Made by a program: the position numbers and the translations under genes. A stretch of 43,392 nucleotides of DNA. Source: Gammaproteobacteria bacterium. GTDB lineage: Bacteria; Pseudomonadota; Gammaproteobacteria; Steroidobacterales; GCA-2729495. Location of the stretch: positions 1 to 43,392 of the forward strand of contig JADZBS010000006.1 in assembly GCA_020851975.1 (NCBI GenBank), in the 5' to 3' direction. Under the pieces are notes generated by a model. The model was not told where the DNA came from. It was given only the letters and a program-made list of their open reading frames with translations, and ran no database searches. Of the stretch, positions 904 to 43,392 are shown in pieces (position 1 is the stretch's first letter; every line of letters begins with the position of its first letter).

Positions 904-909
904 CCGCCC

Positions 910-26481: not shown

Positions 26482-27870
26482 TCAGCGGATGTCGTAGTCG
26501 GCGAGATCGACGTCGCGGTAGCGCACGCGCTCGAAACGGCTGCGATCACCGGCCGGAACGGTGGCATCCAGGCCGACCTTGGTGACGGTGCCGCCGCTGC
26601 CGTCGGGCGCGGCGGTGACCATCGGGTTGAGGATGTGGCCCTCCTCGCCGGGCAGCACCAGCAGGCCGCGATCGGCATCGAGGCGCGTGGTCAGGGCCCA
26701 GTCGACGTCGACCGGGTCGAAGGGATCGACGTCGGCGTCGACGACCACCACGCGCTGCAGCGACTTGAACGCCGCGAAGGCAGCACGCAGCACCGCTGGC
26801 CCCGTGCCCGGCGCCGAGCCGTCGACCTGGACCACGGCCGCATAGAAGCCGCAGCCGCCGGGTGGCAGGTGCACGGCGATGACGTCCGGGTGGCGGGCGC
26901 GCAGCGCGCGGAAGATGGCCGCCTCGGCGGTGAGCCCGACAGTGTTCCAGACCTCGTGCCCGGAGAGCACGGTGTGCAGCACGGGCGCGGCACGATGCGT
27001 GATCGCCGTCACCCGCATGACCCAGCGCCGATCGCGGCCGCCGTAGAAACCGGTCACCTCGCCGAAAGGCCCCTCGTCCTCGCGCAGGCCGGGCAGGACC
27101 TCGGCCTCGATCACGAACTGCGAGTTCGCAAACGCCGGTACGTCGACGGTCTGGCAGCGCACCAGGTCGAGCGGACGCCCGGTCAGGTGATGGGCGACCT
27201 GCAGCTTGCCGTCGCCGAGCCGCGGCAGGGCGGCGGCGAACCAGGTGGCAAGCCCGGTGCCGTTGCAGATCGCCACCGGCAGCGGCTGGCCGCGCTCCTC
27301 GGCGATGCGCACGTACTCGCCGAGGTGCCGGCCGGGATCGATGAGGAAGGTGAGCCGGTCGCGGCCGGTCACCATGCAGCGGTGCACGGCGGCGTTGAGG
27401 CCGCCGGTGAGCGGGTTGCGGGCCACGACCAGCGAGGCATCGAGGTAGCGGCCGCCGTCGCCGAGCGCGTGCTGCGGGATCGGCAGTGCGCCGAGGTCGG
27501 GCACGGCCTGCACCACCTCGTTCGCCGGACCACGCTCGACGAAGCGCGGCGCGAGGGCACCCGGATCCTGCTTCCAGGCACCCACCGCATCGGCAATGGC
27601 AAAGGGCACCGCGCGTGGCGGCCGGCCGAACAGCTCACCGACGGTCTCGCGTTTCGCGAGCAGGCCACAGAGCACCGGGAAGCGGCTGCCGCGCACGCGC
27701 TCGAACAGCACCGCACCGCGACCCTCGAGCCGGCGCGCGATGCCGGCGAGTTCCAACAGCGGATCGACCTCCGAACGCACCCGCAGCAGCAGCCCCCTGC
27801 GGTCGAGGAAGTCGATGCAGGCGCCGAGATCCGAGAGCCGGTCGGCGACCGGAATGCCGGGGTCGGTCAT
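26482..27870 (-). CDS. UbiD family (prenylated-FMN) decarboxylase
   Basis: UbiD-family enzymes use prenylated FMN to decarboxylate (or carboxylate) aromatic and unsaturated acids. The 462-residue product shows the family landmarks: RRGLLLRVRSEVDPLLELAGI at the start, LNAAVHRCMVTGRDRL, and the catalytic-site motif REDEGPFGEVTGFYG with Glu266 and Glu271. Later come ITHRAAPVLH and VVVDADVDPFDPVDVDWAL. No UbiX (prenyl-FMN synthase) gene lies in the window. It follows the aldehyde dehydrogenase by 15 bases and is likely co-transcribed. Substrate inferred to be an aromatic or heteroaromatic acid. Confidence 0.88.
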   Translation of the reverse strand: MTDPGIPVADRLSDLGACIDFLDRRGLLLRVRSEVDPLLELAGIARRLEGRGAVLFERVRGSRFPVLCGLLAKRETVGELFGRPPRAVPFAIADAVGAWKQDPGALAPRFVERGPANEVVQAVPDLGALPIPQHALGDGGRYLDASLVVARNPLTGGLNAAVHRCMVTGRDRLTFLIDPGRHLGEYVRIAEERGQPLPVAICNGTGLATWFAAALPRLGDGKLQVAHHLTGRPLDLVRCQTVDVPAFANSQFVIEAEVLPGLREDEGPFGEVTGFYGGRDRRWVMRVTAITHRAAPVLHTVLSGHEVWNTVGLTAEAAIFRALRARHPDVIAVHLPPGGCGFYAAVVQVDGSAPGTGPAVLRAAFAAFKSLQRVVVVDADVDPFDPVDVDWALTTRLDADRGLLVLPGEEGHILNPMVTAAPDGSGGTVTKVGLDATVPAGDRSRFERVRYRDVDLADYDIR

Positions 27871-27885
27871 GTGCCCCTCCGCCCG

Positions 27886-29346
27886 TCAGCCCATGGGCAA
27901 CTGCACGGTAATCCATTTCCACTCGGTGAGGGTATCGATGTCGATGTCCGTACCCTCGCGCCCGAAGCCGCTGTCGCCCGTCCCGCCGAAGGGCACGTGC
28001 GGCTCGTCGTGGATGGTCGGCGCGTTGATGTGCACCATGCCCGAGTTCATGTCGAGCGCCATCGGCAGCGCCTTGTTGATGTCGCGGGTGTGGATCGCGG
28101 CGCTGAGGCCGTAGACCGTGTCCCTGGCGAGGCGCATCGCCTCGGCGGCGCTGTCCACGGGGTAGACCGACGTCACCGGGCCGAAGGTCTCCTCGCGGCA
28201 CACCGTCATGCCTTCCTGCACGCCGAGGAGCACGGTCGGGCGGCAGCGGTTGCCCTGCCAGGCGCCGCCGGCCAGCAGGCGGGCGCCTTTCGCCACGGCA
28301 TCGTCGATGTGGTGGCGCACCCGGCGGCGCTGGCGTTCGGAGATGATCGGGCCGATCCAGGTCCCGGGATCGCGCAGAGCGCCCATGCCCGTGGCCTCGG
28401 CGCGCGCCCGCAGCCTGGCGCAGAAGTCGTCGAACACCGGGCGCTCGACGTAGATGCGGCTCGCCGCCATGCAGGCCTGGCCCTGGAAGAAGAACACGCT
28501 GAATGCGGCGGCGTCCGCTGCCTGGTCGAGGTCGGCATCGGCGAGCACGATCATCGGGCTCTTGCCGCCGAGTTCGAGGATCACGCGCTTCATCCGCTCG
28601 CCGCAGAGCGCCGCGATGTGCCGGCCAACGCGGCTGGAACCCGTGAACATCACGGCTCGCACCAGCGGATGCGTGGTGAGCGCATCACCGATCTGCTCGC
28701 CGAAGCCGGTGACCACGTTCATCGCACCGGCCGGCAGGCCGGCCTCGCGGTAGATGTCGGCGAGCGCGTGGGCGACGCGCGGGGCTTCCTCCGAGGTGAG
28801 CAGCACCACGGTGTTGCCTGTGGCGAGCGGGGTCGCCGTGAGCTTGGCGTTCTTGAGCAGCGGCACGTTGAAGGGCGAGATGGCCGCGATCACGCCGAGG
28901 GGCTGGCGCACGCTCAGGCTGAAGCGCCCGGGGATGTCCGCGGGCAGCGTCTGGCCGGTCACGCGCCGGGCGGCGCCGGCCGCCGCGCGCAGGCAGCCGA
29001 TCGCGTACTGCACCTCGAACTCGGCCTTGCCGATGGGCGAGCCGACTTCCTCGATCAGGAGGTCGACCAGCGTCTCGCGCCGGCCCTCCATGATGCCGGC
29101 GGCACGGCTCAGCCAGGCTTCGCGCTCGGCCGCGAGCGTGCGACCGTAGCCGGCGAAGGCGGCATCGGCGGCACGCACCGCCATGTCGACGTCCTCGACC
29201 GTGCCCTCGGCGACCTGGGCGACGACGCTGTCGTCCTCGGGATTGCGGTCGTCGAAGTAACGTCCCGAGCGCGGCGGCACGCGGCAGCCGCCGATCCACA
29301 GGTCGTGCCGGGTGATCTCCTCGGTGGGCGGAGCCTGGCGGGTCAT
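27886..29346 (-). CDS. NAD(P)-dependent aldehyde dehydrogenase (aromatic/vanillin type)
   Basis: This oxidises an aldehyde to an acid. The 486-residue product has the ALDH fold landmarks: ISPFNVP with Asn160 (oxyanion), VMFTGSSRVG, VILELGGKSP with Glu258 (base), and FFQGQACMAASR with Cys292 (nucleophile). HVPFGGTGDSGFGREG is at the C-terminus. The QGQ-Cys context resembles vanillin and benzaldehyde dehydrogenases. The usual coenzyme-binding Lys-Pro of the VVLKPSE motif is replaced by Leu183-Thr184. The ATG at 29344-29346 gives the usual length. It precedes the UbiD gene, so it may feed an aromatic acid to it, which is inference. Confidence 0.9.
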   Translation of the reverse strand: MTRQAPPTEEITRHDLWIGGCRVPPRSGRYFDDRNPEDDSVVAQVAEGTVEDVDMAVRAADAAFAGYGRTLAAEREAWLSRAAGIMEGRRETLVDLLIEEVGSPIGKAEFEVQYAIGCLRAAAGAARRVTGQTLPADIPGRFSLSVRQPLGVIAAISPFNVPLLKNAKLTATPLATGNTVVLLTSEEAPRVAHALADIYREAGLPAGAMNVVTGFGEQIGDALTTHPLVRAVMFTGSSRVGRHIAALCGERMKRVILELGGKSPMIVLADADLDQAADAAAFSVFFFQGQACMAASRIYVERPVFDDFCARLRARAEATGMGALRDPGTWIGPIISERQRRRVRHHIDDAVAKGARLLAGGAWQGNRCRPTVLLGVQEGMTVCREETFGPVTSVYPVDSAAEAMRLARDTVYGLSAAIHTRDINKALPMALDMNSGMVHINAPTIHDEPHVPFGGTGDSGFGREGTDIDIDTLTEWKWITVQLPMG

Positions 29347-29507: not shown

Positions 29508-30368
29508 TCAGTGCGGGTCGAGATACCAGTCGTAGATGTCGCCCGCCGTCGTCAGCCACACGCCCTTCTTCTTGCGCACGTAGTCGAAGAACGCCTCGAA
29601 ATAGCGGATGCGATGCGGCACGCCGATGACGAAGGGATGCACGCTGAGCGACATCGCCCTGGGCTGCTTCGCGCCTTCGGCGTAGAGCCGGTCGAACTGG
29701 TCCTTGAGCCGCTTCAGCCACACGTCCGACTGGTGCTGGTGCACCACCATCATCGGCAGGTCGCCGGTCTCCATGCTGTAGGGCATGGCGACGAGCGGAC
29801 CGTGGACGGTGCGCATCCCGACCGGATGCTCGTCGAGCGGCCAGTCGAAGACGTAGCGGAAGCCGGCCTCGGCGAGCAGATCGAGCGTCTCCGGCGTCTC
29901 GTGCAGGCCGGGGCCGAGCCAGCCGCGCGGGGCGCGCCCGGCGTAACGCTTCAGGACCTCGAAGGAGCGGTGGATCACCTCGCGCTGGTCGGGCACGACG
30001 TGCAACGCCGCCTGCGCATAGCTGTGCCCCATGAACTCCCAGCCGAGGTCGCGCAGGGCACGCGCCACCGGTTCGCCGCGACCCTCGCAGACCCGCGCGT
30101 TGATGGCCACGCTGGCGCCGAGGCGGCGCTTCACCAGCGCGTCGATCACGCGCCAGACACCGACGCGCATGCCGTACTCGTGCCAGGACCAGTTCGGCAC
30201 ATTCGGCACCGTGACCACGCCGGCCGGCGAACTCAGGTACTCGCGGGCCACCGGCTTGCCGATGTCCCACTCCTCGACATTGAGCACGCAATACACCGCC
30301 ACGCGTGCGCCCTTCGGCAGGCGCCACGGCGGCCGGTCCTTCATCGCGGAATAATCGAAGCGTTCCAT
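29508..30368 (-). CDS. Polysaccharide-deacetylase family protein, PuuE/allantoinase-like
   Basis: This NodB-fold family includes the cyclic-amide-cleaving allantoinase PuuE and peptidoglycan deacetylases. The 286-residue product begins ERFDYSAMKDRPPWRLPKGARVAVYCVLNVEEWDIG, the PuuE-like N-terminus; the NVEEW acidic residues replace the usual Asp-Asp motif. LGWEFMGHSYAQ holds the likely metal-site His. GWLGPGLHETPETLDLLAEAGF is also typical. With no signal peptide it should be cytoplasmic and act on a small molecule rather than cell wall. It sits in an apparent operon after the GlcD-type oxidase, separated by a palindromic repeat. A C-N hydrolase role is inferred. Confidence 0.8.
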   Translation of the reverse strand: MERFDYSAMKDRPPWRLPKGARVAVYCVLNVEEWDIGKPVAREYLSSPAGVVTVPNVPNWSWHEYGMRVGVWRVIDALVKRRLGASVAINARVCEGRGEPVARALRDLGWEFMGHSYAQAALHVVPDQREVIHRSFEVLKRYAGRAPRGWLGPGLHETPETLDLLAEAGFRYVFDWPLDEHPVGMRTVHGPLVAMPYSMETGDLPMMVVHQHQSDVWLKRLKDQFDRLYAEGAKQPRAMSLSVHPFVIGVPHRIRYFEAFFDYVRKKKGVWLTTAGDIYDWYLDPH

Positions 30369-30480: not shown

Positions 30481-31860
30481 TCAGATGACCTTGCCGGGAT
30501 TGAGCAGCCCGTGGGGATCGAGCGTGCTCTTCAGGGTGCGCATGAGCGCGAGTTCGGCGGGGCTGCGGCAGAGGGCGAGGTAGGGCTTCTTCTCCAGGCC
30601 GATGCCGTGTTCGGCGGACACGGAACCACCGATCGCCTGCAGCGGGCCGTAGACCAGCCGCTCGACCTCGGCGCGATCGGCACCGGCCGGGTCGCCGGCA
30701 CTCACCGCCAGGTGCAGGTTGCCGTCGGCGAGGTGGCCGAAGGTGTAGCAGTGGGCCTCCGGCCAGCGCGCCATGAGAGCCCCGCGAACGGCATCGACGT
30801 AGGCCTCCATCGCCACCAGCGGGGCGCTCACGTCGAACAGGAACAGCGGCCGCAACAGCGTGAGACGCATGACGTCGTCGCGCAGCGCCCAGAGCGCGTC
30901 GCGCTCGCGGTCCGAGCGGGTGATCACGGCATCGGCGATGAGCCCTGCCTCCGCGGCCTGCGCGAGCACGTCCTCGAAGCGCCGCGCGTCTGACCCGGCC
31001 TCGCCGCCTTCGGCCTCGAGGAGCACGTAGTACGGGTAGTCGCCGGCCAGCGGCGGCGTGCGCCCGGCCCCCGGGCCGGTAACGTAGCGGTAGTACGACT
31101 GCCACAACGCCTCGAATGCCGAGAGCGTGCCGCCGAGGCCGGCGTCGACCCGGTTGAGCAGCGCCGTCATGCCGGCGAAGTCGTGCAGCGCGACCAGCGC
31201 CGTCTGGCGGCTCTGCGGCCGCGCCTGCAGGCGCATGACCAGGCGCGTGATCACGCCGAGCGTGCCCTCGCTGCCGATGAAGACGTGCTTGAGGTCGAAG
31301 CCGGCATTGTTCTTGAGCATGCGGTTGAGCGCGCTGACGACCGTGCCGTCGGCGAGCACCGCCTCGAGCCCCAGCACCAGCATCCGCGCCATTCCGTAGC
31401 GCAGGACACGATTGCCGCCGGCGTTGGTGGCCGCCACGCCGCCGAGCGTGGCGCTGCCGCGCGAGCCCATGTCGAGTGGCAGGAGAAGCCCGGCCGACTC
31501 CGCCGCTTCCTGCGCCGTCTGCAGGGTGACGCCAGCTTCCGCGGTGAGCGTGCGCCCGACTGCATCGACGGCCTCGATACGCCGCAGGCGGGCGAGCGAC
31601 AGGACGACTTCACCGGCGCGGCTGTCGGTCCCATGGACGAGGCCGGTGCGCCCGCCGTGCACCACCAGCGGCTGGCGCGCCGCGTGGCAGGCCGCAACCA
31701 CCGCGGCCACCTGCGCGGGTGTCGCCGGCTGCACGACCGCCATGGCCTGCACGGGCCGGCCGCCGTCCCACGGTCCCGGTCCGTAGCCGGCCATGGCCTC
31801 GCCCGCGAGCACGCCACCGGGTCCGGTGACGGCGTGGAGCTGGTCGAGGAGCTTGCTCAT
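30481..31860 (-). CDS. FAD-linked oxidase, GlcD/D-lactate dehydrogenase type
   Basis: This is a flavoprotein of the vanillyl-alcohol-oxidase fold that oxidises 2-hydroxy acids (glycolate, D-lactate, D-2-hydroxyglutarate). The 459-residue product has the PCMH FAD domain (QPLVVHGGRTGLVHGT, LPLDMGSRGSATLGGVAATNAGG, IGSEGTLGVITRLVMRL). The C-terminal substrate domain has FGHLADGNLHLAVSAGD and SVSAEHGIGLEKKPYL, plus the final LKSTLDPHGLLNPGKVI. All are family diagnostics. I chose the ATG at 31858-31860; a GTG seven codons upstream is possible. It follows the Mo-hydroxylase large subunit by 38 bases in the same direction, so a shared pathway is likely. Confidence 0.92.
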   Translation of the reverse strand: MSKLLDQLHAVTGPGGVLAGEAMAGYGPGPWDGGRPVQAMAVVQPATPAQVAAVVAACHAARQPLVVHGGRTGLVHGTDSRAGEVVLSLARLRRIEAVDAVGRTLTAEAGVTLQTAQEAAESAGLLLPLDMGSRGSATLGGVAATNAGGNRVLRYGMARMLVLGLEAVLADGTVVSALNRMLKNNAGFDLKHVFIGSEGTLGVITRLVMRLQARPQSRQTALVALHDFAGMTALLNRVDAGLGGTLSAFEALWQSYYRYVTGPGAGRTPPLAGDYPYYVLLEAEGGEAGSDARRFEDVLAQAAEAGLIADAVITRSDRERDALWALRDDVMRLTLLRPLFLFDVSAPLVAMEAYVDAVRGALMARWPEAHCYTFGHLADGNLHLAVSAGDPAGADRAEVERLVYGPLQAIGGSVSAEHGIGLEKKPYLALCRSPAELALMRTLKSTLDPHGLLNPGKVI

Positions 31861-31898
31861 GAAACGCGTGGCAGGTTCCACGCGCAGCCATCGCCGCC

Positions 31899-34337
31899 TC
31901 AGCGGCGGGCCTGCTTCCCGCCACGCCGCTCGACGCTCACTGCCTCGGCACGATTCGGCTTCTGCAGGATCTCGAACAGCCGCGGCGCCGGGTGGTGCGA
32001 GCCGGTGACGATCACGCCCGCCCCGTGCAGCGCATCCTGGAGTGCTGCCGACATGGTGTGCAACGGCGCGCCACCGCCCTCGCCCATGCCCTTGGCCCCG
32101 CTGTAGGTAAAGGGCGACGGCGTTTCAATGTTGCCCCAGGCGATGTCGGGCAGGTTGAGCGCCGTGATCGGGCAGTAGTCGCTGAAGGTGCCGGTGAGCA
32201 GGTTGCCCGACTCGTCGTAGTCGAGGCTCTCCATGATGGCCGCGCCGATGCCGTGGCTGGTGGCCCCGTGCACCTGGCCGTGGGCAATCTGCGGGTTGAT
32301 GAGCGTGCCGCAGTCGTCGACGGCGGCGTAGGCGAGTATCTGCGGGCGACAGGTCTCGCGGCTGACTTCAACGACGGCGATGTGCAGTTGCGCGGCATAG
32401 GTCAGCGTCAGGTTGCCGAACTTGCGCTCGGTGTCCGGCACCTTGAACGGCGGACGATAGACGTGGCGCACGTTGAGCGTGACGTCGGCGAGGCTCGCAT
32501 CGAGCAGGGCGTTGTTGTTGTTGACGAGATTGGCCATGTACCAGTAGTTGATGGCCTTGTCGGTGCCCTTGACACGCACCTCCGGGCCCTGCGCGCCGGT
32601 GCCGAATTCGAGATCCTCCTCGGCGGCCTCCAGCATGTAGGCAGCGAGCCGGCGCATCTCCGCCTTGAGCTTCTGCGCAGCGCCGTGCACGGCCGACAAA
32701 CCGGTCACCGCGAACTGGCTGGCGTAGGTACCGGAGTGGCCGACGAACGTGTTCCAGGCGGTGTCGAAACCCGGGCGCACGTGGACCATCGACGGGTCGA
32801 TGCCGAGCACGTCGGCGGCAACCTGCGAGGCGGCGGTCTCATGGCCCTGGCCGGACGGCGTGGTGCCGAGGCAGACGATGACGGCGCCCTCGAGGTCCAG
32901 GCGCATGGTGCAGACTTCGGAGTTGCCCGAGAACGGCAGGTACGGGTTCATGATCCGCGCCTGGCCGAAGTTGTTGGTGCCCGAATCGAGCGTGGTGCCG
33001 ATGCCGATGCCGATCAGCCGGCCGGCCTTGCGGCCCGCGGCACACTCCTTCTGCCAGCGGTCCCAGCCGATGAGTTCCTTGGCCCGGGTGAGCATCGCCG
33101 GGTAGTCACCCGAATCGTAGACGCAGCCGTTCGGCGTCTCGTAGGGGAACTGCGTGATGTAGTTCTTCAGCCGCATCTCGTCGGCCGGGAGGCCGAGTTC
33201 GTGGGCACAGATGTCGACGATGCGCTCCATGAACCACAACTGCTGCATGCGTGAGTAGCCGCGGTTGGGCACGACCGGGCACTTGTTGGTCACCGTCTGC
33301 GTGAAGTCGATGCGCAGGTTGCGCACCTTGTAGGTCGCCGCCAGCACCTGCGACCAGATCACGCAGCCAAGCGGCTCGTAACGGGTGTAGGCGCCGCAGT
33401 CGTCGATGTGGCGCGAGCGCACGGCCGTGATCACGCCCTCCCGGTCGAGCGCCACCTCGGTGTCGAGGTAGGTGCGTTCGTTGCCGTGGCCGCTGGCGAG
33501 CAGGTGCTCGCTGCGGGTCTCCGCCCACTTCACGCGCCGGCCACCGGTCTTCTTCGAGACCAGCGCCGCCACGGCCATGTACACGTAGTTCCAGATCTGG
33601 TTGCCGAAGCTGCCGCCGACATCGTAGGTGCGGATGTGCACCTGGTCGGCTTTCAGGCGCAGGCCCGGCGCGAGCAACTGCTGGGCGAAGCCTGGAAAGG
33701 AGTTGTTGCAGAGGAAATCGACGCCACCCTGGCGCTTCCACTCGGCGATGCAGGCATTGTTTTCGAGGGGCGTGCTGGCGAAACGGTGGAACTGCATCCG
33801 CGGGATGCGCACGACGAAAGCCGCGTCGCGGAACGCGCCCTCGACATCGCCGTACTCGTACACGCCCTGCCAGGTGCGGTTGGTGCCGGCCGCCTCGTGC
33901 AGGATGCTGCGGTCGCTGAGCGCATCCTCGGCGTCGACGACGGCATCGAGCATCTCGTACTCGACGTCGATGAGTGCGGCTGCGTCCTCGGCGAGAGCCA
34001 CCGAATCGGCCGCCACGGCGGCCACCGGCTCGCCCTGGAAAATGACCTTGTCGACCGCCATCGGCAGGTCGCGGATCTTGTCGCAGGGCGGTGGGCCGAG
34101 CTGCATGACCGGATCGCACTGCGCAGCGACCTCGCGGCCGGTCAGCACGCAGGCCACGCCGGGCAGCGCCTCGGCCGCCGACGTGTCGATGCGCACGATG
34201 CGGGCGTGCGCGTAGGGCGAGCGCAGGATGTGGAGATGCAGCATCCCGGGCTCGAGTTCGTCGTCGGTGAACAGCCCGCGACCCCGGACGAGACGATCGT
34301 CCTCCTTGCGCCGTACCGACGTGCCCGTCCAGCTCAT
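31899..34337 (-). CDS. Molybdenum hydroxylase large (Mo-cofactor) subunit 1, xanthine dehydrogenase/CoxL family
   Basis: This is the catalytic subunit of a molybdenum hydroxylase that inserts water-derived oxygen into an aromatic heterocycle or aldehyde. The 812-residue product has the N-terminal RRKEDDRLVRGRGLFTDD and DVGGSFGNQIWN, a variant of the GGGFG motif with Ser for the third Gly. The active-site loop region reads VPNRGYSRMQ. The catalytic Glu753 lies in AKGMGEGGGAP. It lacks the Cys-containing CO dehydrogenase loop (AYRCSFR), so it is not a true CO dehydrogenase. FAD, FeS and CoxG genes precede it in the same operon. Substrate unknown. Confidence 0.92.
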   Translation of the reverse strand: MSWTGTSVRRKEDDRLVRGRGLFTDDELEPGMLHLHILRSPYAHARIVRIDTSAAEALPGVACVLTGREVAAQCDPVMQLGPPPCDKIRDLPMAVDKVIFQGEPVAAVAADSVALAEDAAALIDVEYEMLDAVVDAEDALSDRSILHEAAGTNRTWQGVYEYGDVEGAFRDAAFVVRIPRMQFHRFASTPLENNACIAEWKRQGGVDFLCNNSFPGFAQQLLAPGLRLKADQVHIRTYDVGGSFGNQIWNYVYMAVAALVSKKTGGRRVKWAETRSEHLLASGHGNERTYLDTEVALDREGVITAVRSRHIDDCGAYTRYEPLGCVIWSQVLAATYKVRNLRIDFTQTVTNKCPVVPNRGYSRMQQLWFMERIVDICAHELGLPADEMRLKNYITQFPYETPNGCVYDSGDYPAMLTRAKELIGWDRWQKECAAGRKAGRLIGIGIGTTLDSGTNNFGQARIMNPYLPFSGNSEVCTMRLDLEGAVIVCLGTTPSGQGHETAASQVAADVLGIDPSMVHVRPGFDTAWNTFVGHSGTYASQFAVTGLSAVHGAAQKLKAEMRRLAAYMLEAAEEDLEFGTGAQGPEVRVKGTDKAINYWYMANLVNNNNALLDASLADVTLNVRHVYRPPFKVPDTERKFGNLTLTYAAQLHIAVVEVSRETCRPQILAYAAVDDCGTLINPQIAHGQVHGATSHGIGAAIMESLDYDESGNLLTGTFSDYCPITALNLPDIAWGNIETPSPFTYSGAKGMGEGGGAPLHTMSAALQDALHGAGVIVTGSHHPAPRLFEILQKPNRAEAVSVERRGGKQARR

Positions 34338-36192: not shown

Positions 36193-36418
36193 GCGTGTCG
36201 TTCCCCGCCTGGGCCCCGGTCCCCGGCGCTGCAATGCCGGTCGTCGCCGAAACATAGCACAACGATCCGGAGCCCAAGCGGCACCCGCCGGGCGCTGCCG
36301 GAAACGCCAAGCACTGTGCCCGTTGGGACAAGACGGACGCGGGTCGCGACGGGAATGCTAGGATGGATCGAACATCAAGGCTGCGGCACGACGCCCGGCC
36401 GCATTCCGGAACCTGCCC

Positions 36419-37309: not shown

Positions 37310-37777
37310 ATGCAGAAGCTGATCACCCTCCAGGTCAACGGCGAGCGCCACGAACTGGCCGTCGAGCCCGACGAGTCGCTCCTGCAGGTACTGCGCAACC
37401 GGCTGGAGCTCGTCGGCCCGAAGAAGGGCTGCGACTCCGGCGGTTGCGGCTGCTGCTCGGTGCACGTCGATGGCCGCGTCGCCTACTCGTGCATGATGTA
37501 CGCCGTCGGCGCCGAAGGGCGCGAGATCACGACCATAGAAGGCATCGGCAGCCCCGCCACCGGCCTGCACCGGCTGCAGCAGGCGTTCATCGACGCCGGC
37601 GCGGTCCAGTGCGGCTACTGCACATGCGGCATCATCATGGCCGCCAAGCAGCTCCTCGACACGGTGAAACAGCCGAGCGAGGACCAGATCCGCCTGGCCA
37701 TTGCCGGCAACCTCTGCCGCTGCACCGGCTACGCCAAGATCGTCGACGCCATCAAGCTGGCCGCTGCCCAGACCTGA
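37310..37777 (+). CDS. Molybdenum hydroxylase 2Fe-2S subunit 2 (CoxS type) with extra cysteines
   Basis: This two-cluster electron-transfer subunit has 155 residues. Cluster ligands appear to be Cys41, Cys46, Cys49 and Cys61 (GCDSGGCGCCSVHVDG) and Cys101, Cys104, Cys136 and Cys138 (QCGYCTCG, LCRCTG). Two extra Cys are present: Cys48 beside the first cluster, and Cys106, where most relatives have Pro-Gly after QCGYCT. The rest is standard. It lies between the FAD and Mo subunit genes. The extra Cys may affect cluster environment or redox partner; that is inference. Confidence 0.94.
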   Translation: MQKLITLQVNGERHELAVEPDESLLQVLRNRLELVGPKKGCDSGGCGCCSVHVDGRVAYSCMMYAVGAEGREITTIEGIGSPATGLHRLQQAFIDAGAVQCGYCTCGIIMAAKQLLDTVKQPSEDQIRLAIAGNLCRCTGYAKIVDAIKLAAAQT

Positions 37778-37799: not shown

Positions 37800-40127
37800 A
37801 TGAGCCTGATCGGCAAGAGCCCCGCGCGGCCCGATGCGCTGGACAAGGTGACCGGCGGCAAGGGCTATCCGGTGAACGTGCGCCTGCCCGGCATGTTGCA
37901 CGGCAAGCTGCTGCGCAGCCCCTATCCGCACGCCCGCATCCGGCGCATCGACACCAGCGCCGCGGCGAAGCTGCCCGGCGTGAAGGCCGTCCTCACGCCC
38001 GCCGACGTGCCGCGGCGCAAGTTCACGCCGGTGTACTTCGTGCCTGCCGACGCCGGCAGCATGGTGCAGGACATGGTGATCATGAGCGACACCGTGCGCT
38101 TTGCCGGCCAGCCGGTGGCAGCCGTGGCCGCCACGTCGCTGCGCATCGCCGAGGAGGCGCTCGCGCTGATCGAGGTCGAGTACGAGGAACTGCCGGCCAT
38201 CTTCGACCCGGAGGCCGCGATGCAGCCCGGGGCGCCGGTGCTCCACGCGCATGCGCCGAACAACGTCGCGGTGAACCCCTCGATGGGCTTCGGCGACCTG
38301 GAGCGCGGGTTTGCCGAGGCGGATCACATCTTCGAGGGCGTGTACCAGAGCCATCGTGTGCACACCTGCTACATGGAGCCGCGGGTGTGCGTGGTGGACT
38401 GCGACAGCCAGGGCCGCTATACGGTGCACTCCTCCATGCAGCACCTGTTCGGGCTGCGCCAGAAGCTCGCCTACGCGCTCGAGATCCCGGAGAGCGACGT
38501 GCGCGTGGTGAAGCCGCCGTACATCGGCGGCGGCTTCGGCGGCAAGCTCGACCTCGGCTATATCGAGCCGGTCGCAGCGCTGCTGAGCCGCCGTGCCGGC
38601 CGCCCCGTGCGCATCGAGCAGATGCGTTACGAGGACTTCATCTCCACCGCGCGCCACCCCATCAAGGTCTACCTGAAGACCGGCGTGAAGAAGGACGGCA
38701 CCTTCACCGCGCGCTACTCCAGGAGCATCCTCGACACCGGTGCCCACGCCACGCACGGCGCCGAAGTGATCAACGTCCACGGCGCCTTCGGCCTGCTCAT
38801 GACCTACCGCTGCCCGAACGCGAAGTGGGAAGGCTACACGGTCTACACCAACAACATGATCGGCGGCGGCTACCGCGGCTACGGTTCGCCGCAGGCCTGC
38901 TTCGCCGCCGAATCGCAGATCGACGAGATCTGCGAGAAGCTCGGGCTCGACCCGATCGAATTCCGGCGCCGCAACGCCTGGCGCCAGGGCGAGGCCCACC
39001 CGGTGATCCCGGGGCTGAAGCTCGACAGCTACGGCTTCGAGGAATGCCTCGCGCGCGGCGCCGAACGCATCGGCTGGAAGAGCCGCCGCAAGGCCAACAG
39101 CGGCAGCGGCACGCGCCGGCGCGGCATCGGCTTCGCCTGCCAGCCGCTGTGGGTGAGCGGCTGCGTCGGCTTCCCGGACATCTACGAGCACTCCGGGGCC
39201 ATCGTGAAGCTCAACCCGGACGGCACGGCCGATCTCGCCACGGCGGCCATGGACCTCGGCTCCGGCCAGATCACCACGCTCTGCCAGATCGCCGCCGAGG
39301 AACTCGGCCTGCCGATGGAGGCCGTGCGCATGGTGCAGAACGCCGACACGACGACGGTGCCGTTCGATGCGCCGAGCCACGCGAGCCGCGTGACCTACAG
39401 CGCCGGCGGTGCCGTGCGCGCCGCTGCCACCGTCGCGCGTGAGCGGCTGCTGAAGGTCGCCGGCATCATGCTCGAGGCGAGCCCCGAGGATCTCACCGTC
39501 GCCGATGGGCGGGTATCGGTGCGCGGCGCGCCGGCCAGCCGCTCGCTCAGCGTCGCCGAGGTGGCGCAGCGCGCCGAGTCGCCGTTCGTCCAGCACGGCG
39601 CCCAGGGGCCAGTGCCCACCACGCTCGAGGAGAAAGGCACGATCATCGGGCTATCCAGCCAGGCGCCGAAAGGCAACCCCTCGCCGGCGGCCGTCGCCTT
39701 CGTCGAGGTCGAGGTCGACACCGAGACCGGCCAGGTGGACGTGCTGCGCGCGGTCTACGCTCATGATCTCGGCCGGCTGATCCACCCCCAGGGTGCCGAA
39801 GGCCAGGTCGAGGGCGGCTTCCAGCAGGGCATGGGCTATGCGCTCATGGAGAACCTGCAGTTCGATCCGGACTCCGGCACCTGCCTCACCGGCGACTTCC
39901 TCGACTACAAGATACCGACTGCGATGGAGATGCCGCGCGACATCCAGAGCGTCTTCGTCGAGACCAACGAGCCGACCGGCCCGTTCGGCGCCAAGTCGCT
40001 CTCCGAGCCGTGCATCACCGTGCCTGCACCGGCGATCGCCAACGCCATCTACAACGCCATCGGCGTGCGCATCCACGAACTGCCGATCACGCCGGAGAAG
40101 ATCCTCGCGGCGCTCGGGAAGATATGA
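37800..40127 (+). CDS. Molybdenum hydroxylase large (Mo-cofactor) subunit 2, xanthine dehydrogenase family
   Basis: This is the catalytic subunit of the second hydroxylase, 775 residues. It has the N-terminal RPDALDKVTGGKGYPVNVRLPGMLHGKLLRSP typical of the xanthine dehydrogenase/4-hydroxybenzoyl-CoA reductase group. It also has PPYIGGGFGGKLD, the active-site GGGYRGYGSPQACFAAE loop, MDLGSGQITT, and the catalytic Glu736 in AKSLSEPCI. It lacks the Cys-containing loop of CO dehydrogenase. A GGAG ribosome site precedes the ATG at 37800. It follows coxS after 22 bases. A palindromic repeat lies just past its stop. It differs strongly from hydroxylase 1, so the two probably take different substrates. 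Confidence 0.93.
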   Translation: MSLIGKSPARPDALDKVTGGKGYPVNVRLPGMLHGKLLRSPYPHARIRRIDTSAAAKLPGVKAVLTPADVPRRKFTPVYFVPADAGSMVQDMVIMSDTVRFAGQPVAAVAATSLRIAEEALALIEVEYEELPAIFDPEAAMQPGAPVLHAHAPNNVAVNPSMGFGDLERGFAEADHIFEGVYQSHRVHTCYMEPRVCVVDCDSQGRYTVHSSMQHLFGLRQKLAYALEIPESDVRVVKPPYIGGGFGGKLDLGYIEPVAALLSRRAGRPVRIEQMRYEDFISTARHPIKVYLKTGVKKDGTFTARYSRSILDTGAHATHGAEVINVHGAFGLLMTYRCPNAKWEGYTVYTNNMIGGGYRGYGSPQACFAAESQIDEICEKLGLDPIEFRRRNAWRQGEAHPVIPGLKLDSYGFEECLARGAERIGWKSRRKANSGSGTRRRGIGFACQPLWVSGCVGFPDIYEHSGAIVKLNPDGTADLATAAMDLGSGQITTLCQIAAEELGLPMEAVRMVQNADTTTVPFDAPSHASRVTYSAGGAVRAAATVARERLLKVAGIMLEASPEDLTVADGRVSVRGAPASRSLSVAEVAQRAESPFVQHGAQGPVPTTLEEKGTIIGLSSQAPKGNPSPAAVAFVEVEVDTETGQVDVLRAVYAHDLGRLIHPQGAEGQVEGGFQQGMGYALMENLQFDPDSGTCLTGDFLDYKIPTAMEMPRDIQSVFVETNEPTGPFGAKSLSEPCITVPAPAIANAIYNAIGVRIHELPITPEKILAALGKI

Positions 40128-40165: not shown

Positions 40166-40171
40166 TAATTC

Positions 40172-41050
40172 CTACGGCGTCGCCCGACGCCGGGAATAGC
40201 GCAGGAGCCCCACCAGACCCGACGCCAGCAACCATGCCGCCGGCGGCGCCGGCACAGTCGTGGATATCCACGACAGCGGGACCCCGGCGTTGCTGGTGAT
40301 CGTGGAACCTGGCGGCAGCGACAGCGACAAGGTCGCGGTATTGAAGAAGTCGTTCGTCGCCGCCGCACCGTTCGACGCATTGACGCCGGTGAACAGGCTC
40401 AGGGCGATACGCAAGGTATCGTTGGGGTTCAGTGTGATGGCCGGCATCGACAGCTGCGCCTGGAGACCGGTGGAATCGTTCTGAACAATGGTTGCCGTCG
40501 CGCCATTCTCCTGGCTGACCTCGGTGTAGTCGGTGAAGAAACCCTGCCAGTCGCTCCAGCCCTGCCCGGTGCCGATGCCTGCGCTGTAGAACTCCGCGCT
40601 GCCGCCCTGTGCAGGCCTCACGCTGGCCTCGAGGAACGCATTGACGAACACGGCCGCCTGCCGGCCACCGCTGCCGGCCGTGGAGAACGTAAATGCACCA
40701 TCGAGCGCCACCGTCAGGAATCCCGACGAGGCGGTGATCGGAGCAGCGCCTGTGTTGACCAGCTCGAGCGCGTCCACCCCGGCAGTCAACGTGTGCCCGA
40801 CCAGCCATGACCCAGGCAGAGTCACCTCGCTCACCAGCGCCTTGACCGTGCCGTTCTGCAGGTCGACCTCCCCGTTGTACCCGGGCCCGCTCGACGCGAC
40901 GAACGAGGGATCAGACACCTCCCCGGTATCGAGCTGGATGTAAACCTCGGCGCTGCGCGCACCGGCCGACAGCAGCAGGCACGCTGCCAACGAGCAAGCC
41001 GAGGCCGCGCGAAAGCGACGTGCGATGAGCGGTAAGCGCTGGTGAAGCAT
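40172..41050 (-). CDS. PEP-CTERM sorting-domain secreted protein
   Basis: This is an exported protein sorted by an exosortase/EpsH system, typical of exopolysaccharide-making bacteria. The 292-residue product has a signal peptide (residues 1-33, CSLAACLLLSAGARSA). The central region is rich in Gly, Ser, Thr and Asn with beta-strand patterns. The C-terminus is VPAPPAAWLLASGLVGLLRYSRRRATP: the Pro-rich recognition motif (VPxPxAxWLxxSGLxGL form), a membrane helix and a basic tail. No exosortase gene is in the window. It is on the opposite strand to the cox-type genes around it, has palindromic repeats on both sides, and reads less GC-biased than its neighbours. Specific function unknown. Confidence 0.88.
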   Translation of the reverse strand: MLHQRLPLIARRFRAASACSLAACLLLSAGARSAEVYIQLDTGEVSDPSFVASSGPGYNGEVDLQNGTVKALVSEVTLPGSWLVGHTLTAGVDALELVNTGAAPITASSGFLTVALDGAFTFSTAGSGGRQAAVFVNAFLEASVRPAQGGSAEFYSAGIGTGQGWSDWQGFFTDYTEVSQENGATATIVQNDSTGLQAQLSMPAITLNPNDTLRIALSLFTGVNASNGAAATNDFFNTATLSLSLPPGSTITSNAGVPLSWISTTVPAPPAAWLLASGLVGLLRYSRRRATP

Positions 41051-41148: not shown

Positions 41149-41195
41149 CGGGGACGGTCCATTCACCTCGCGCCGAATGGAGTGAACTATCCCCG
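41149..41195. repeat. Palindromic extragenic element upstream of the MoxR gene
   Basis: Outer arms CGGGGA (from 41149) and TCCCCG (to 41195) and inner arms CCATTC (41159-41164) and GAATGG (41175-41180) make a nested palindrome. The right half reads, on the minus strand, CGGGGATAGTTCACTCCATT, a relative of the GGGGACAGTTTACTCAAT core. It lies between the divergent PEP-CTERM and MoxR genes, five bases before the MoxR start codon, so it may form an RNA hairpin over the ribosome site. Confidence 0.78.
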
Positions 41196-41200
41196 AAACC

Positions 41201-42154
41201 ATGTCGCGTGCGACCATTGCGAGCATGAGCAGCCCGGCCTTCGCCTCGATCGACACCGTGAGCGCGGCGCTCGCTGCCCACGGCTACATCCCCGACCGCA
41301 GCCTCGCCACCACGGTGTTTCTCGCCGTGCGCCTCGGCCGGCCGGTCTTCCTCGAAGGCGAGCCGGGCGTGGGCAAGACGGCGCTCGCGAGCACGCTCGC
41401 CACGATCCTCGGCACGGAGCTGATCCGCCTGCAGTGCTACGAGGGCCTCGACGTCCACACCGCGCTCTACGAGTGGAACTACCCGCGCCAGATGCTCGAG
41501 GTGCGGCTGCAGGAAGCCCGCGGCCTCGCCCGCGAACGCATCGGCACCGACATCTTCACCGAAGCCTTCCTGCTCGAGCGCCCGCTGCTGCGCGCCATCC
41601 GCAGCGAGGGCCCGGCCCCGGCAGTACTGCTGATCGACGAGGTCGATCGCGCCGACGAGGAATTCGAGGCCTTCCTGCTCGAAGTGCTGTCGGAGTTCCA
41701 GGTCACCATCCCGGAACTCGGCACCATCCGCGCCCGCCGCGTGCCGCTGGTGGTGCTGACCTCCAACCGCACGCGCGAACTGCACGACGCGCTCAAGCGC
41801 CGCTGCCTCTACCACTGGATCGACTACCCGGATGTCGCCAAGGAAGTCGCCATCGTCCAGGCACGCCTGCCGGGTATCGCAGCCAGGCTGGCCGGCCAGC
41901 TCGCTTTCTTCATGCAGCGCATCCGCCATGAGGACCTGCACAAGAGGCCCGGTGTCGCCGAGACGCTCGACTGGGCCGAGGCCCTGCTCGCACTCGGTGC
42001 CGCCGATCTCGACCCGGCGACGGTGGATGCCACGCTGGGCTGCATCCTCAAGTACAAAGCCGACCAGGACCGCCTGCGCGCAGCCGGGATCGACCGGCTG
42101 CTCGGCGACGCCCGCCAGGCTCGCGAGTTTGCCGCCTCGCCGATGACGCGCTGA
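41201..42154 (+). CDS. MoxR-family AAA+ ATPase (CoxD-like)
   Basis: MoxR ATPases act as chaperones with VWA proteins; CoxD of carboxydotrophs is needed for assembly of the Mo/Cu active site of CO dehydrogenase. The 317-residue product has Walker A GEPGVGKT (53-60), Walker B LLIDEVDRADEEF (143-155), sensor 1 VVLTSNRTRELHDALKRRC and a C-terminal lid domain. The start is ATG 41201 or 41225 (MSSPAF); the first lies against a palindrome that would cover its ribosome site. Its stop overlaps the next gene's ATG (ATGA). Maturation of one or both hydroxylases is the likely role, inferred from context. Confidence 0.93.
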   Translation: MSRATIASMSSPAFASIDTVSAALAAHGYIPDRSLATTVFLAVRLGRPVFLEGEPGVGKTALASTLATILGTELIRLQCYEGLDVHTALYEWNYPRQMLEVRLQEARGLARERIGTDIFTEAFLLERPLLRAIRSEGPAPAVLLIDEVDRADEEFEAFLLEVLSEFQVTIPELGTIRARRVPLVVLTSNRTRELHDALKRRCLYHWIDYPDVAKEVAIVQARLPGIAARLAGQLAFFMQRIRHEDLHKRPGVAETLDWAEALLALGAADLDPATVDATLGCILKYKADQDRLRAAGIDRLLGDARQAREFAASPMTR

Positions 42155-43392
42155 TGCCTGCCGGCCAGCCGACGGCCTTTCTCGAACGCATCCTCGGATT
42201 CCTCGGCGCGCTGCGTGCCGCCGGCCTGCCAGCCGACCCGGCCGGGGCGATCAGCCTCGGCGAGGCCCTGACCCGGATCGACATCGGCCGGCCGGCGGAC
42301 GTGCAGGCGGCCGCACGGGCCCTGCTCGTCCACCGGCGCGAACATCTGGGTCTCTTCGACGAGGTGTTTCGCGAGTACTGGCTCGGCCAGCACCGCCCCG
42401 GGGGCAACGTCCCGGGCGAGCATGCGAGCGAGGTGAGCGGCCGCTCCCCCACGCGCCTGCCACAGCTTGCGGCGGGCGAGGAGTCGGCCGGCGAGCGCGA
42501 ACGCGCGGGCACGGGCTACAGCCCCGACGAGGTCATCGCCCGTCGCGACCTCGCCACGCTCGGCGAGGGCGAGATCGAACGGGCCCGCTGGCTGCTGCGT
42601 GAATTCATCCGCGCGTTCGCCGCCCTGCGGGTGAAGCGCTACGCGCGCGCCCGGCGTGGATCGATACCGGATTTCCGGCGCCTGCTGCGGCAGGCGGCGG
42701 TGCGCGGCGGCGATCTCGCCACGCTCCCCTGGCGGCACCGGCCGCGCGAGCGCACGCGACTGCTCGTGCTCTGCGACGTGTCGGGTTCGATGGAGCGCTA
42801 CGCGCGCTTCCTGCTCGAATTCGTCTACGGGCTGCGCCGCGAGCTGCCCGACACCGAGGTCGCCGTGTTCGCCACGCGCATGACCGTGATCACCGACCTG
42901 CTGCAGACCGGGGCGGTGACCCGCTCGCTGCGCGAAGTCGCCGCCCGGGCCGGCGACTGGGGCGGCGGCACGGACATCGGCGGCTGCCTGCGCGACTTCA
43001 ACGACCGCTACGCCCGCGACCTGGTGCGCTACCGCACGACGGTGGTGCTGCTCAGCGACGGCTGGGACCGCGGCGATGCTGCGGTGATGGCGGCGGAAAT
43101 CGCCCGGCTGCGCCGGCGTGCCCATCGCCTGGTGTGGCTGAACCCGCTGCTCGGCAACCCTGATTATCAGCCGCTGACGCGCGGCATGAGCACGGCGTTG
43201 CCCTATCTCGACCACTTCCTGCCGGCGCACAACCTCGAGAGCCTCGCGCGGCTGGCGCGCGTGCTTGCCGATGACCGTCGTGGGGTCGCGACTGGCGTCG
43301 CTCCTACCGCAGCTGCGATCGGGCGCGGCGCGAAAATCGGGTCGCGACTGGCGTCGCTCCTACAGGGCAAGCCCACGCCGGATCAGCACCCG
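42154..43392 (+). CDS. CoxE-like VWA-domain protein, 3' end beyond window
   Basis: CoxE-type VWA proteins pair with the CoxD ATPase in maturing CO-dehydrogenase-like enzymes. From ATG 42154 the frame stays open to the window end (413 codons, no stop). The VWA domain has the MIDAS motif DVSGS with Asp208, Ser210 and Ser212, the GGGTDIGGCL Thr, and LLSDGWDRGD. The family-like part ends around LESLARLARVLADD (about residue 374). The last 40 or so codons are made of two copies of a palindromic-type repeat and its spacer, read in frame, so the natural C-terminus may be altered. Overlap with the MoxR gene shows coupling. Confidence 0.9.
   Translation, partial: MPAGQPTAFLERILGFLGALRAAGLPADPAGAISLGEALTRIDIGRPADVQAAARALLVHRREHLGLFDEVFREYWLGQHRPGGNVPGEHASEVSGRSPTRLPQLAAGEESAGERERAGTGYSPDEVIARRDLATLGEGEIERARWLLREFIRAFAALRVKRYARARRGSIPDFRRLLRQAAVRGGDLATLPWRHRPRERTRLLVLCDVSGSMERYARFLLEFVYGLRRELPDTEVAVFATRMTVITDLLQTGAVTRSLREVAARAGDWGGGTDIGGCLRDFNDRYARDLVRYRTTVVLLSDGWDRGDAAVMAAEIARLRRRAHRLVWLNPLLGNPDYQPLTRGMSTALPYLDHFLPAHNLESLARLARVLADDRRGVATGVAPTAAAIGRGAKIGSRLASLLQGKPTPDQHP
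43283..43307 (+). repeat. REP-type repeat copy 1, inside the VWA reading frame
   Basis: This copy is GGGTCGCGACTGGCGTCGCT followed by CCTAC. An identical 25-base copy begins 56 bases later. Sequences of this kind (a GTAGGAGCGACGCCAGTCGCGAC-like unit on the other strand, here split by convention) are known as dispersed extragenic repeats in Xanthomonas and relatives. Here it is read in frame at the 3' end of the VWA gene. Confidence 0.8.
43339..43363 (+). repeat. REP-type repeat copy 2, inside the VWA reading frame
   Basis: This is an exact second copy of the 25-base unit at 43283-43307, in the same orientation, with 31 bases between them. Because 56 is not a multiple of three, the two copies are read in different frames, yet neither gives a stop codon. 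Confidence 0.8.

Follow-up and report, generated by a model that had tools for sequence, protein, structure and literature searches.

A conserved gammaproteobacterial locus with two divergent molybdenum hydroxylases and a UbiD-family decarboxylase, a candidate part of a degradation pathway for a nitrogen-containing heteroaromatic

Several described systems resemble parts of the locus analysed here. The HMF/FDCA cluster has a logic in common with it, in which a substituent is oxidised, a UbiD-family enzyme decarboxylates and a molybdenum (Mo) enzyme hydroxylates; we take the furan type of cluster to combine HmfF with a 2-furoyl-CoA dehydrogenase, a CoA ligase and a crotonase-type hydratase. Aerobic CO dehydrogenases and form II CoxL-like enzymes share the subunit make-up, CoxG and the MoxR and VWA accessory genes, and form I CO dehydrogenase needs a cysteine in its active-site loop (PMC7248562). 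The indole-3-carboxylate decarboxylase AnInD (PDB 7p9q) carries an aspartate, D169, which was docked to the indole nitrogen and is needed for activity (PMC8988006). PuuE allantoinase and the cyclic imidases share a fold family with a hydrolase of the locus, these relatives acting on small cyclic ureides or imides, and HxnM of Aspergillus nidulans, a distant PuuE relative, is a cyclic imidase in nicotinate breakdown (PMC9304392). A search of one open-access library of papers found no pathway with the gene set of this locus, as a sequence-only reading had supposed.

That reading described two complete sets of FAD, 2Fe-2S and Mo subunits leaving a common centre in opposite directions, and all of the genes it named are present in the window (the whole stretch of 43,392 nucleotides that was analysed). 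The 226-bp divergent control region (36193-36418) is partly conserved with L099, a contig of another metagenome-assembled genome. On the minus strand it is followed by the FAD subunit (35299-36192) and 2Fe-2S subunit (34815-35312) of the first enzyme, both assigned by NCBIfam and Pfam, then by CoxG (SRPBCC; 34348-34815, GTG start; PF06240 at 75.3 bits, cut-off 22.2) and the molybdopterin subunit, here called MoA (31899-34337; Pfam MoCoBD_1/2). The same strand continues, as claimed, into a GlcD-type FAD-linked oxidase of the 2-hydroxyacid dehydrogenase type (30481-31881; FAD_binding_4 and FAD-oxidase_C, but 226 bits on TIGR00387, below its cut-off of 568), a PuuE-like hydrolase with the polysaccharide deacetylase fold (29508-30368), an aldehyde dehydrogenase (ALDH; 27886-29346; Aldedh at 4e-152, motifs LELGGK and FFQGQAC) and a UbiD-family prFMN decarboxylase (26482-27870). 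On the plus strand lie the FAD subunit (36419-37294) and 2Fe-2S subunit (37310-37777) of the second enzyme and its molybdopterin subunit, MoB (37800-40127), assigned by NCBIfam and Pfam and, for MoB, also by its loop. The MoxR and VWA genes reported downstream of this set are there, but not in direct succession: an ORF on the opposite strand (40172-41050), with no Pfam or NCBIfam match, separates MoB from a MoxR/CoxD-type AAA ATPase (41201-42154, plus strand; NF047784 at 285 bits, cut-off 475). The VWA/CoxE-type gene (42154-43392, plus strand; NF047783 at 68.6 bits, cut-off 600) is incomplete because the window is one whole contig, whose end cuts it. MoxR adjoins MoB, and VWA adjoins MoxR, in L084/L102 and L153.

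The left boundary had been drawn at the end of the UbiD gene, and this did not hold. The conserved block reaches further left, through an AraC-family regulator (25446-26465, plus strand) to a BBE-type FAD-linked oxidase (about 23816-25330, minus strand; FAD_binding_4) with a Tat-like leader, RRQALQQLASLG, read by eye; both follow UbiD in L099 in the order of the window, and the oxidase is conserved beside UbiD and AraC in L080, L083 and L099. An acyl-CoA dehydrogenase (21402-22568, minus strand; Pfam acyl-CoA dehydrogenase domains) is only a probable member since it lies 9 kb from MoA in the window. It is 86% identical to a copy in L079 and 86-87% to those in L103, L104 and L167, and its relatives immediately follow MoA in L084, L087 and L088; in L079 and L081 they are found some 5 kb further downstream of it.

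Neither Mo subunit passes any curated NCBIfam cut-off. The MoA loop reads PNRGYSRMQ, and alignment and tree place the protein in a clade with the motif PNRG[YF]SR, apart from the hmfA-like rows; the Glu of GMGEGGG is presumably catalytic. Neither the CSFR seen in the CoxL alignment nor AYRGAGR occurs at this loop, and judged by sequence the MoA clade lies outside both forms, I and II, of CO dehydrogenase. Among solved structures the best match of MoA is a CoxL (352.8 bits) and the second-best is quinoline 2-oxidoreductase (344.5 bits). Its best NCBIfam match is a CO dehydrogenase model, with scores on two such models of 457 and 394 bits against cut-offs of 950 and 991. The small subunits of the MoA enzyme also stay below the NCBIfam glyceraldehyde dehydrogenase (beta, gamma) cut-offs (2Fe-2S subunit 251.6 of 290 bits, FAD subunit 227.8 of 350). 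MoB has the loop YRGYGSPQ, and we assume that the Glu of KSLSEPC is its catalytic residue. Its nearest families are XdhA (648.8 bits, below the cut-off of 780) and 4-hydroxybenzoyl-CoA reductase (alpha model, 583.8 bits, below 994.55), whose context differs; with a profile of five MoB sequences the nearest PDB entry, 1rm6 of the latter enzyme, scores 457 bits.

This is a real, conserved locus of catabolic type, neither a chance arrangement nor a chimera. In L099 the order from MoB to the BBE-type oxidase is kept at 81-95% identity, and dN/dS between window and L099 is 0.07-0.24 for 12 genes (the BBE gene left out), a sign of purifying selection, and none of the 12 has an in-frame stop; as L099 begins inside MoB (468 residues), it is silent on MoxR and VWA. 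The divergent MoB/MoA core is retained in L079, L081, L084 and L153. The proposed co-occurrence check found the genes together in related genomes, as modules that can lie apart; apart from the window, just one of 79 scanned loci (L099) has GlcD next to MoA. MoA at 71% identity or more occurs in eight of 147 genomes of the order, with relatives of merely 34-38% in six others, and either MoA or the M24 gene described below is found in only one of seven genomes of the window's genus, making the set patchy. Six of the eight MoA-positive genomes carry MoB at 74% or more, and a 59% copy is present in a MoA-negative genome (G050). Of the 147 genomes, just the window's own (G000) and G088 have a PuuE of 67% identity or higher, and in G088 the 20 kb surrounding it contain no Mo gene.

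The locus is probably only part of a pathway, and a second conserved module of the same genome goes with MoA. In Acidobacteriota and some Gammaproteobacteria, MoA lies beside genes of the PanE, M24, M20, luciferase (LLM), FAH and HMGL-like types; in the window's genome these are on another contig, C41, in the order permease-PanE-PanE-M24-LLM-FAH-M20-HMGL. The M24 protein has no close family, and its gene occurs in exactly the eight genomes of the 147 that have MoA at 71% or more. In G265, a genome of another family, 12 kb hold MoA (64%), UbiD (44%), PuuE (74%), M20 (75%), FAH (64%) and LLM (72%); MoA, cut by the contig start, overlaps or abuts UbiD, and MoA, UbiD and PuuE lie within 6 kb. The LLM protein of C41 reaches 175.6 bits on the F420-dependent Mer model (cut-off 348.7), and its nearest solved structures are Mer. 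CofH, for F420 synthesis, is above cut-off in all nine MoA-positive genomes tested but also in 15 of 23 MoA-negative ones, so F420 does not discriminate. The only NCBIfam matches of the C41 permease at E <= 1e-8 are two weak nucleobase/cytosine permease models (NCS1-type; 49 bits, cut-off 353).

We give a probability of roughly 0.55 to the reading that a pathway for a nitrogen-containing heteroaromatic is split between two loci, one half in the window and the other on C41. It is supported by the order and dN/dS seen with L099, the retained divergent core, the presence of MoA and M24 in the same eight genomes, MoB in six of them, UbiD at 45% or more in MoA-positive genomes of the order only, UbiD-ALDH-AraC-BBE on other contigs of the core-bearing G131 and G139, the G265 cluster, D178 of UbiD (below), the quinoline 2-oxidoreductase match, the F420-Mer-like LLM, CofH in 9/9 genomes, and PuuE relatives that act on small cyclic imides, one of them in nicotinate breakdown. 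It is weakened by GlcD adjoining MoA in L099 alone of the 79 scanned loci, by PuuE at 67% or more in only 2/147 genomes, by no UbiD at 45% or more in 3/8 MoA-positive genomes, by neither UbiD nor MoB above 60% in the scanned stretches of 50 Acidobacteriota loci, and by MoB without MoA, an AnInD-like UbiD without MoA, the non-discriminating CofH, the weak permease match, an M24 without close family, the CoxL as best solved match of MoA, the 41% identity of UbiD to AnInD and Glu at the Asp position in some loci. The earlier suggestion of a carboxylated aromatic or N-heterocycle as substrate fits; the N-heterocycle is favoured by the acidic residue of UbiD, the second-best solved match of MoA, the PuuE-type hydrolase and the weak likeness of the permease to NCS1 types, and the window probably holds only part of the route.

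The UbiD protein passes TIGR00148 (252.1 bits, cut-off 244.85), and its best solved match is AnInD. R164, E266 and E271 supply the E-R-E triad, and together with D178 and L414 they match the Arg, Asp, Glu and Leu active-site positions of AnInD, D178 aligning with D169; the UbiDs of L086, L090 and L196 have Glu in place of that Asp. The best surviving alternative, which we still think unlikely, takes this likeness literally: indole-3-carbinol or -aldehyde would be oxidised to indole-3-carboxylate, UbiD would yield indole, MoB would hydroxylate C2 to oxindole, and PuuE would open the lactam to anthranilate-like products. UbiD indeed keeps the docked Asp, yet its 41% identity to AnInD is barely above the 39% to HmfF (both over aligned parts), and the UbiD of L197 is closer to AnInD (58%). 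The nearest NCBIfam model of the AraC regulator is AndR, the anthranilate dioxygenase regulator (168 bits, cut-off 350), but no anthranilate or catechol pathway genes were found among the window ORFs scanned, and the permease shows a weak likeness to NCS1 types, not to aromatic-acid transporters. Also in favour, the neighbours of a MoB relative (40-42%) in L187 include HyuA/HyuB-like and B12-mutase-like genes, named by eye, which we take to resemble the anaerobic indoleacetate pathway.

Second among the alternatives, and likewise improbable, is that gene shuffling has joined two independent pathways here, one a hydroxylase system with MoA and MoB, the other a module of BBE, ALDH and UbiD for removing an acid group. 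G131 and G139 have the two on different contigs, with UbiD-ALDH-AraC-BBE 75-86% identical and the core also present, and UbiD at 45% or more was not found in three of the eight MoA-positive genomes. Against this, UbiD at that level occurs in five of the 147 order genomes and never without MoA, and in G265 the two genes touch with PuuE near. Further afield, MoB above 60% or UbiD was found in 0 of 50 Acidobacteriota loci within the DNA stretches scanned, so the window's branch is not obligate to the MoA pathway; the stretches retrieved for L184-L186 contain MoB but not MoA, and the 20 kb retrieved from G238 contain an AnInD-like UbiD but likewise not MoA. One Acidobacteriota locus, L118, contains a 69-residue MoB-like fragment.

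A pyridine-type route in the style of nicotinate or isonicotinate breakdown comes third, and we doubt it too. Here two Mo hydroxylases would produce 2,6-dihydroxypyridine, an F420-dependent reductase would give glutarimide, PuuE would serve as the cyclic imidase and an amidase would finish. The two distinct Mo hydroxylases and the F420-Mer-like LLM of the second module agree with it, as do the precedent of HxnM and the loci L079 and L081, where MoA is directly followed by two PuuE-like genes and by one named, by eye, as isochorismatase-like. However, it is hard to see a role for UbiD and ALDH unless the ring bears an extra substituent, and among solved structures MoA has better matches than the pyridine-ring hydroxylases (286 bits for 6-hydroxypseudooxynicotine dehydrogenase and 96 for nicotinate dehydrogenase, where the best match has 353). 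The PuuE-like protein, assigned by TIGR03212, by the PDB PuuE allantoinase and by alignment, has only 128.6 bits on the allantoinase model TIGR03212 (cut-off 424.6), and is nearer the solved allantoinase (1e-26, 97 bits) than the HpPgdA/imidase relative (37.7 bits).

A furan pathway of the HMF/FDCA type, with UbiD as HmfF and a Mo enzyme as 2-furoyl-CoA dehydrogenase, is very improbable. A Caballeronia plasmid locus (UbiD, UbiX, Mo/FAD/2Fe-2S, AMP-binding, enoyl-CoA hydratase-related, GMC, MFS), which presumably resembles the furan pathway, holds distant relatives of the window's UbiD and Mo proteins, and two genes assigned by Pfam, a GMC oxidoreductase (19712-21379) and a MaoC-like hydratase (22651-23583), lie in the left part of the window. 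But the window UbiD falls outside the HmfF group, with which it shares 35-39% identity, the group's three locus members being 47-52% identical to PtHmfF and without the Asp; MoA is in a different clade from the hmfA-like rows; the window ORFs scanned include no CoA ligase or crotonase-type hydratase, the MaoC-like gene being the sole hydratase type; and the window adds PuuE, CoxG and a second Mo enzyme. Least probable of all is an aerobic CO dehydrogenase cluster (CoxLMS, CoxG, CoxD, CoxE) beside unrelated catabolic genes, which has the CoxG, MoxR and VWA neighbours and the best PDB and NCBIfam matches of MoA on its side, but against it the scores below the CODH cut-offs, a PNRGYSR loop with neither the form I Cys nor the form II AYRGAGR, and conserved neighbours that are catabolic in type.

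Under the two-locus reading, the putatively exported BBE-type oxidase and the ALDH would turn a hydroxymethyl or formyl ring substituent into a carboxylate, which would be lost as CO2 through UbiD; from this succession we infer that the carboxylate is formed within the pathway and not supplied. MoA, MoB or both would oxygenate ring carbons beside the nitrogen with water as the oxygen source, with MoxR and VWA as putative factors for Mo-centre maturation and CoxG for membrane docking. The resulting lactam or imide may be reduced by the F420-Mer-like protein of C41 before the PuuE-like enzyme, a putative cyclic amide or imide hydrolase by its sequence, opens the ring. GlcD and the acyl-CoA dehydrogenase, together with the enzymes encoded on C41 (two PanE-type reductases, M24, M20, FAH and HMGL-like), would then act on the open-chain products. 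More tentatively, and as a possibility we hold below even odds, MoA may found an undescribed Mo hydroxylase clade (PNRG[YF]SR) that starts a likewise undescribed, F420-linked pathway of N-heteroaromatic breakdown in Acidobacteriota and in several lines of proteobacteria. The window would then represent a variant that has gained a second Mo hydroxylase and an oxidase-ALDH-UbiD branch, the branch taking a substituent off the ring ahead of its hydroxylation and its opening by a PuuE-type enzyme.

The divergent locus of the window, together with a second module of genes on contig C41 of the same genome, is best read as a putative two-locus breakdown pathway for a nitrogen heteroaromatic compound. 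Every gene that the sequence-only reading had named was found in its place, with slight shifts of start sites. On the minus strand, running outward from a 226-bp centre, lie the FAD and 2Fe-2S subunits of the first Mo hydroxylase (FADA and FeSA), CoxG, its molybdopterin subunit (MoA), GlcD, PuuE, an aldehyde dehydrogenase (ALDH) and UbiD, with intergenic gaps in this order of -14, -1, 10, 17, 112, 161 and 15 bp; to the left of UbiD come the genes of an AraC regulator and of a BBE-type oxidase, the latter bearing a Tat-like leader. On the plus strand, the centre is followed by FADB, FeSB and MoB of the second hydroxylase, an opposite-strand ORF, MoxR and VWA. The last two had been described as following the MoB set, and both are indeed present, but the ORF (40172-41050) intervenes and the contig end truncates VWA, because the window is the entire contig C6 of a 2.85-Mb genome (150 contigs, 92% complete). 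This ORF has no family match, a signal-like start and a C-terminal segment that by eye resembles a VPLPA/PEP-CTERM sorting signal. The genes at 15609-23583, which encode a luciferase-like protein (30% to the luciferase-family protein, LLM, of C41), a PLP enzyme, an AraC regulator, a GMC oxidoreductase and a MaoC-like hydratase, possibly belong to a wider catabolic region. Ordinary chromosome lies on the left side (334-12960: ATP synthase subunits, ParA/ParB, an oligopeptide ABC transporter and NnrS).

A scan of genome contigs with an alignment of MoA returned 79 loci. In L099 (KLAP199, Pseudomonadota), the order MoB (part)-FeSB-FADB / FADA-FeSA-CoxG-MoA-GlcD-PuuE-ALDH-UbiD-AraC-BBE is kept at 81-95% identity, the 226-bp centre is conserved in part, and dN/dS against the window (Nei-Gojobori, 12 genes, BBE not among them) ranges from 0.07 for FeSA to 0.24 for AraC. 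Of the 79 scanned loci, L099 was the only one in which GlcD was found together with MoA, as it is in the window. Throughout, gene names in loci without a family-model scan or annotation come from similarity to the query set or from reading by eye.

Within the order, MoA at 71% identity or more was found in 8 of 147 genomes (the window's genome G000, G088, G103, G107, G123, G129, G131 and G139), and relatives of just 34-38% in six additional ones. The divergent MoB/MoA core is retained in G131, G139 and G107; MoxR and VWA adjoin MoB in G107, and UbiD, ALDH, AraC and BBE (75-86%) lie on different contigs from the core in G131 and G139. UbiD at 45% or more is present in five of the 147 genomes, all MoA-positive, with relatives of 36-39% in two others, and MoB is present in seven, six of them MoA-positive at 74% or more and one, G050, MoA-negative at 59%. 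Counting the window's genome, MoB was retrieved from 4/369 genomes of the wider class at E <= 1e-150 and from 6/398 across the phylum at E <= 1e-140, and UbiD from 3/369 of the class at E <= 1e-95. A search for close plasmid relatives found none, the best identities being 54% for MoA, 45% for MoB, about 40% for UbiD and 48% for PuuE. The cultured Variovorax paradoxus DS1452 (L155) carries a more distant MoA (57% identity) with differing neighbours, and three fetched stretches (L184, L185 and L186) hold MoB without MoA inside them. The genome G238 has an AnInD-like UbiD (AnInD being indole-3-carboxylate decarboxylase), and MoA was not found within the 20 kb fetched around it. These stretches and G238 speak against the association, for which G265, from another family, provides an independent case: 12 kb there hold MoA (64%, truncated at the contig start, loop PNRGYSR), UbiD (44%), PuuE (74%), M20 (75%), FAH (64%) and LLM (72%). 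Depending on the UbiD start chosen, its frame either overlaps the MoA stop or abuts it; two MoB copies are both on other contigs of G265.

The second module was recognised beside MoA in other genomes. In G088, G103 and G129, as in Acidobacteriota, MoA adjoins PanE-type reductases, M24 and M20 hydrolases and LLM, and often FAH-family and HMGL-like genes too. Of the 79 scanned loci, 47 contain two or more of these families (Acidobacteriota 40/50, Pseudomonadota 7/24). The Acidobacteriota gene set (within L112-L169), whose labels M24, FAH, LLM and similar are based on 31-62% matches, is FAD-FeS-CoxG-MoA-PanE-M20-M24-PanE-LLM with HMGL and FAH frequently close; in both of the loci that were read from end to end, L116 and L117, an extra M24-type gene lies between PanE and M20. 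None of the 50 scanned Acidobacteriota loci has UbiD, or MoB above 60%. In the window's genome, C41 (L198) carries a permease, PanE, PanE, M24, LLM, FAH, M20 and HMGL. At E <= 1e-120 its M24 gene is found in the same 8 of 147 genomes as MoA and in no others; chance agreement of two random sets of 8 would have a probability of about 2e-13 (4e-6 within the family), figures that assume independence among genomes, an assumption that does not hold. Only one of seven genomes of the window's genus has MoA and M24, and since the set is thus patchy, the match is not easily explained by common descent alone. In a comparison of 12 genomes, M24 was present in 9/9 MoA carriers and 0/3 non-carriers.

The LLM protein of C41 is nearest to the F420-dependent enzyme Mer, under the Mer cut-off. 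CofH scored above its cut-off in 24/32 genomes, comprising 9/9 MoA carriers and also 15/23 non-carriers, and F420 was therefore rejected as a discriminating marker of the pathway. In L156 (an Azonexus MAG), the MoA set is preceded by a formate-dehydrogenase-like Mo enzyme and by genes that by eye resemble CofE, CofD and CofC of F420 synthesis; MoxR, VWA and an XdhC-like gene come after the set. By eye, a DMSO-reductase-type Mo enzyme lies near MoA-pathway genes at L198:45-4282, L088:17227-19854 and L156:84-2780, accompanied in L198 and L156 by 4Fe-4S and NrfD-like genes.

In the pathway that we infer, the oxidase and ALDH would produce a ring carboxylate, UbiD would remove it, the Mo hydroxylases would oxidise ring carbons adjoining the nitrogen, PuuE would open the lactam or imide so formed, and the open chain would pass to the remaining enzymes; both the substrate and the order of steps are proposals. 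An indole-type pathway fits parts of the data. UbiD scores above its family cut-off and, among solved structures, is most closely related to AnInD (41% identity); its D178 aligns with AnInD D169. In PMC8988006, D169 is docked to the indole nitrogen and mutation shows its importance. The UbiD proteins of L086, L090 and L196 have Glu in place of D178. A pyridine-type pathway likewise fits parts of the data. One locus with a MoB relative (L187, 40-42%) has, by eye, HyuA/HyuB-like, B12-mutase-like and acyl-CoA dehydrogenase genes, a set that resembles the anaerobic indoleacetate pathway.

Other loci pair related enzymes with different neighbours. L086 and L090 combine an AnInD-like UbiD (44-45%) with, by eye, a BBE oxidase, a ThDP decarboxylase, MFS, a TonB receptor and 3HCDH-like and cytochrome c-like genes. 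The ThDP decarboxylase, near UbiD in these two and near MoB in L185, was dropped as a shared pathway member, being present in 3 of the 12 genomes tested and in none of G000, G131 and G139. In L190 (Sinorhizobium meliloti pSymB), L192 and L193, a distant UbiD (31-33%) lies close to a MoB-like enzyme (43-45%), and L190 additionally has UbiX, an NCS2 symporter and amidohydrolases; these three may represent another, putative Mo-UbiD pathway.

A furan pathway was rejected, as UbiD and the Mo subunits group elsewhere, and the four sequences compared of HmfF type (the UbiD-type enzyme of that pathway) are without a residue equivalent to D178. A Caballeronia plasmid locus (L178), with UbiD and UbiX, does resemble the furan (HMF/FDCA) pathway. 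The PuuE-like protein is under the allantoinase cut-off, yet matches solved PuuE. PuuE relatives act on small cyclic imides (PMC9304392, PMC3084791). A narrow purine/allantoin pathway was rejected, PuuE and the Mo subunits being under the curated cut-offs, and PuuE was set aside as a pathway marker because its paralogues are too many (87/147 genomes at E <= 0.001). Directly after MoA, L079:12407-16006 and L081:5331-7893 each carry two PuuE-like genes in tandem and an isochorismatase-like gene, to which L079 alone adds a flavin-reductase-like gene; this ring-opening set differs from the window's.

Among solved structures, MoA matches a CoxL best (352.8 bits), with quinoline 2-oxidoreductase next (344.5 bits). 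The families closest to MoB are XdhA and 4-hydroxybenzoyl-CoA reductase, and MoB is under both curated cut-offs. A Glu in each Mo subunit is taken as catalytic. The active-site loop of MoA is PNRGYSRMQ, and the CoxL of PDB 8uem has a CSFR loop. Form II enzymes have AYRGAGR at the corresponding loop (PMC7248562). CO dehydrogenase identity was rejected on the MoA loop and the sub-cut-off model scores. In a tree of 93 Mo subunits (FastTree only, with a long-branch warning), all 65 rows with the loose pattern RG[YF]SR[MLA][QP] fall into a single clade (local support 100%). The exact PNRG[YF]SR is found in 63/93 rows, and the share of signature-bearing rows is biased upwards because one of the two scan patterns (MQ[HQ][LI]WFM) begins at the end of the MoA loop. 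Eight scan loci duplicating genomes already sampled were excluded from the tree, as were loci whose single best match had fewer than 700 aligned residues or a stop in the matched stretch.

No pathway with this gene set was found in the one library of open-access papers covered, for the terms searched. The component enzymes are all from known families; their combination, the MoA clade and the association of the two modules appear to be new. The loop signature offers a means of separating one large clade of Mo hydroxylases, whose members give their top scores, under cut-off, to CO dehydrogenase models and hence could be misread as such. The two co-occurring modules provide a concrete gene list with which a shared substrate could be sought. 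If the reading is true, N-heteroaromatic turnover in mostly uncultured bacteria would gain a route that joins Mo hydroxylation to prFMN decarboxylation, PuuE-type ring opening and possibly F420 reduction.
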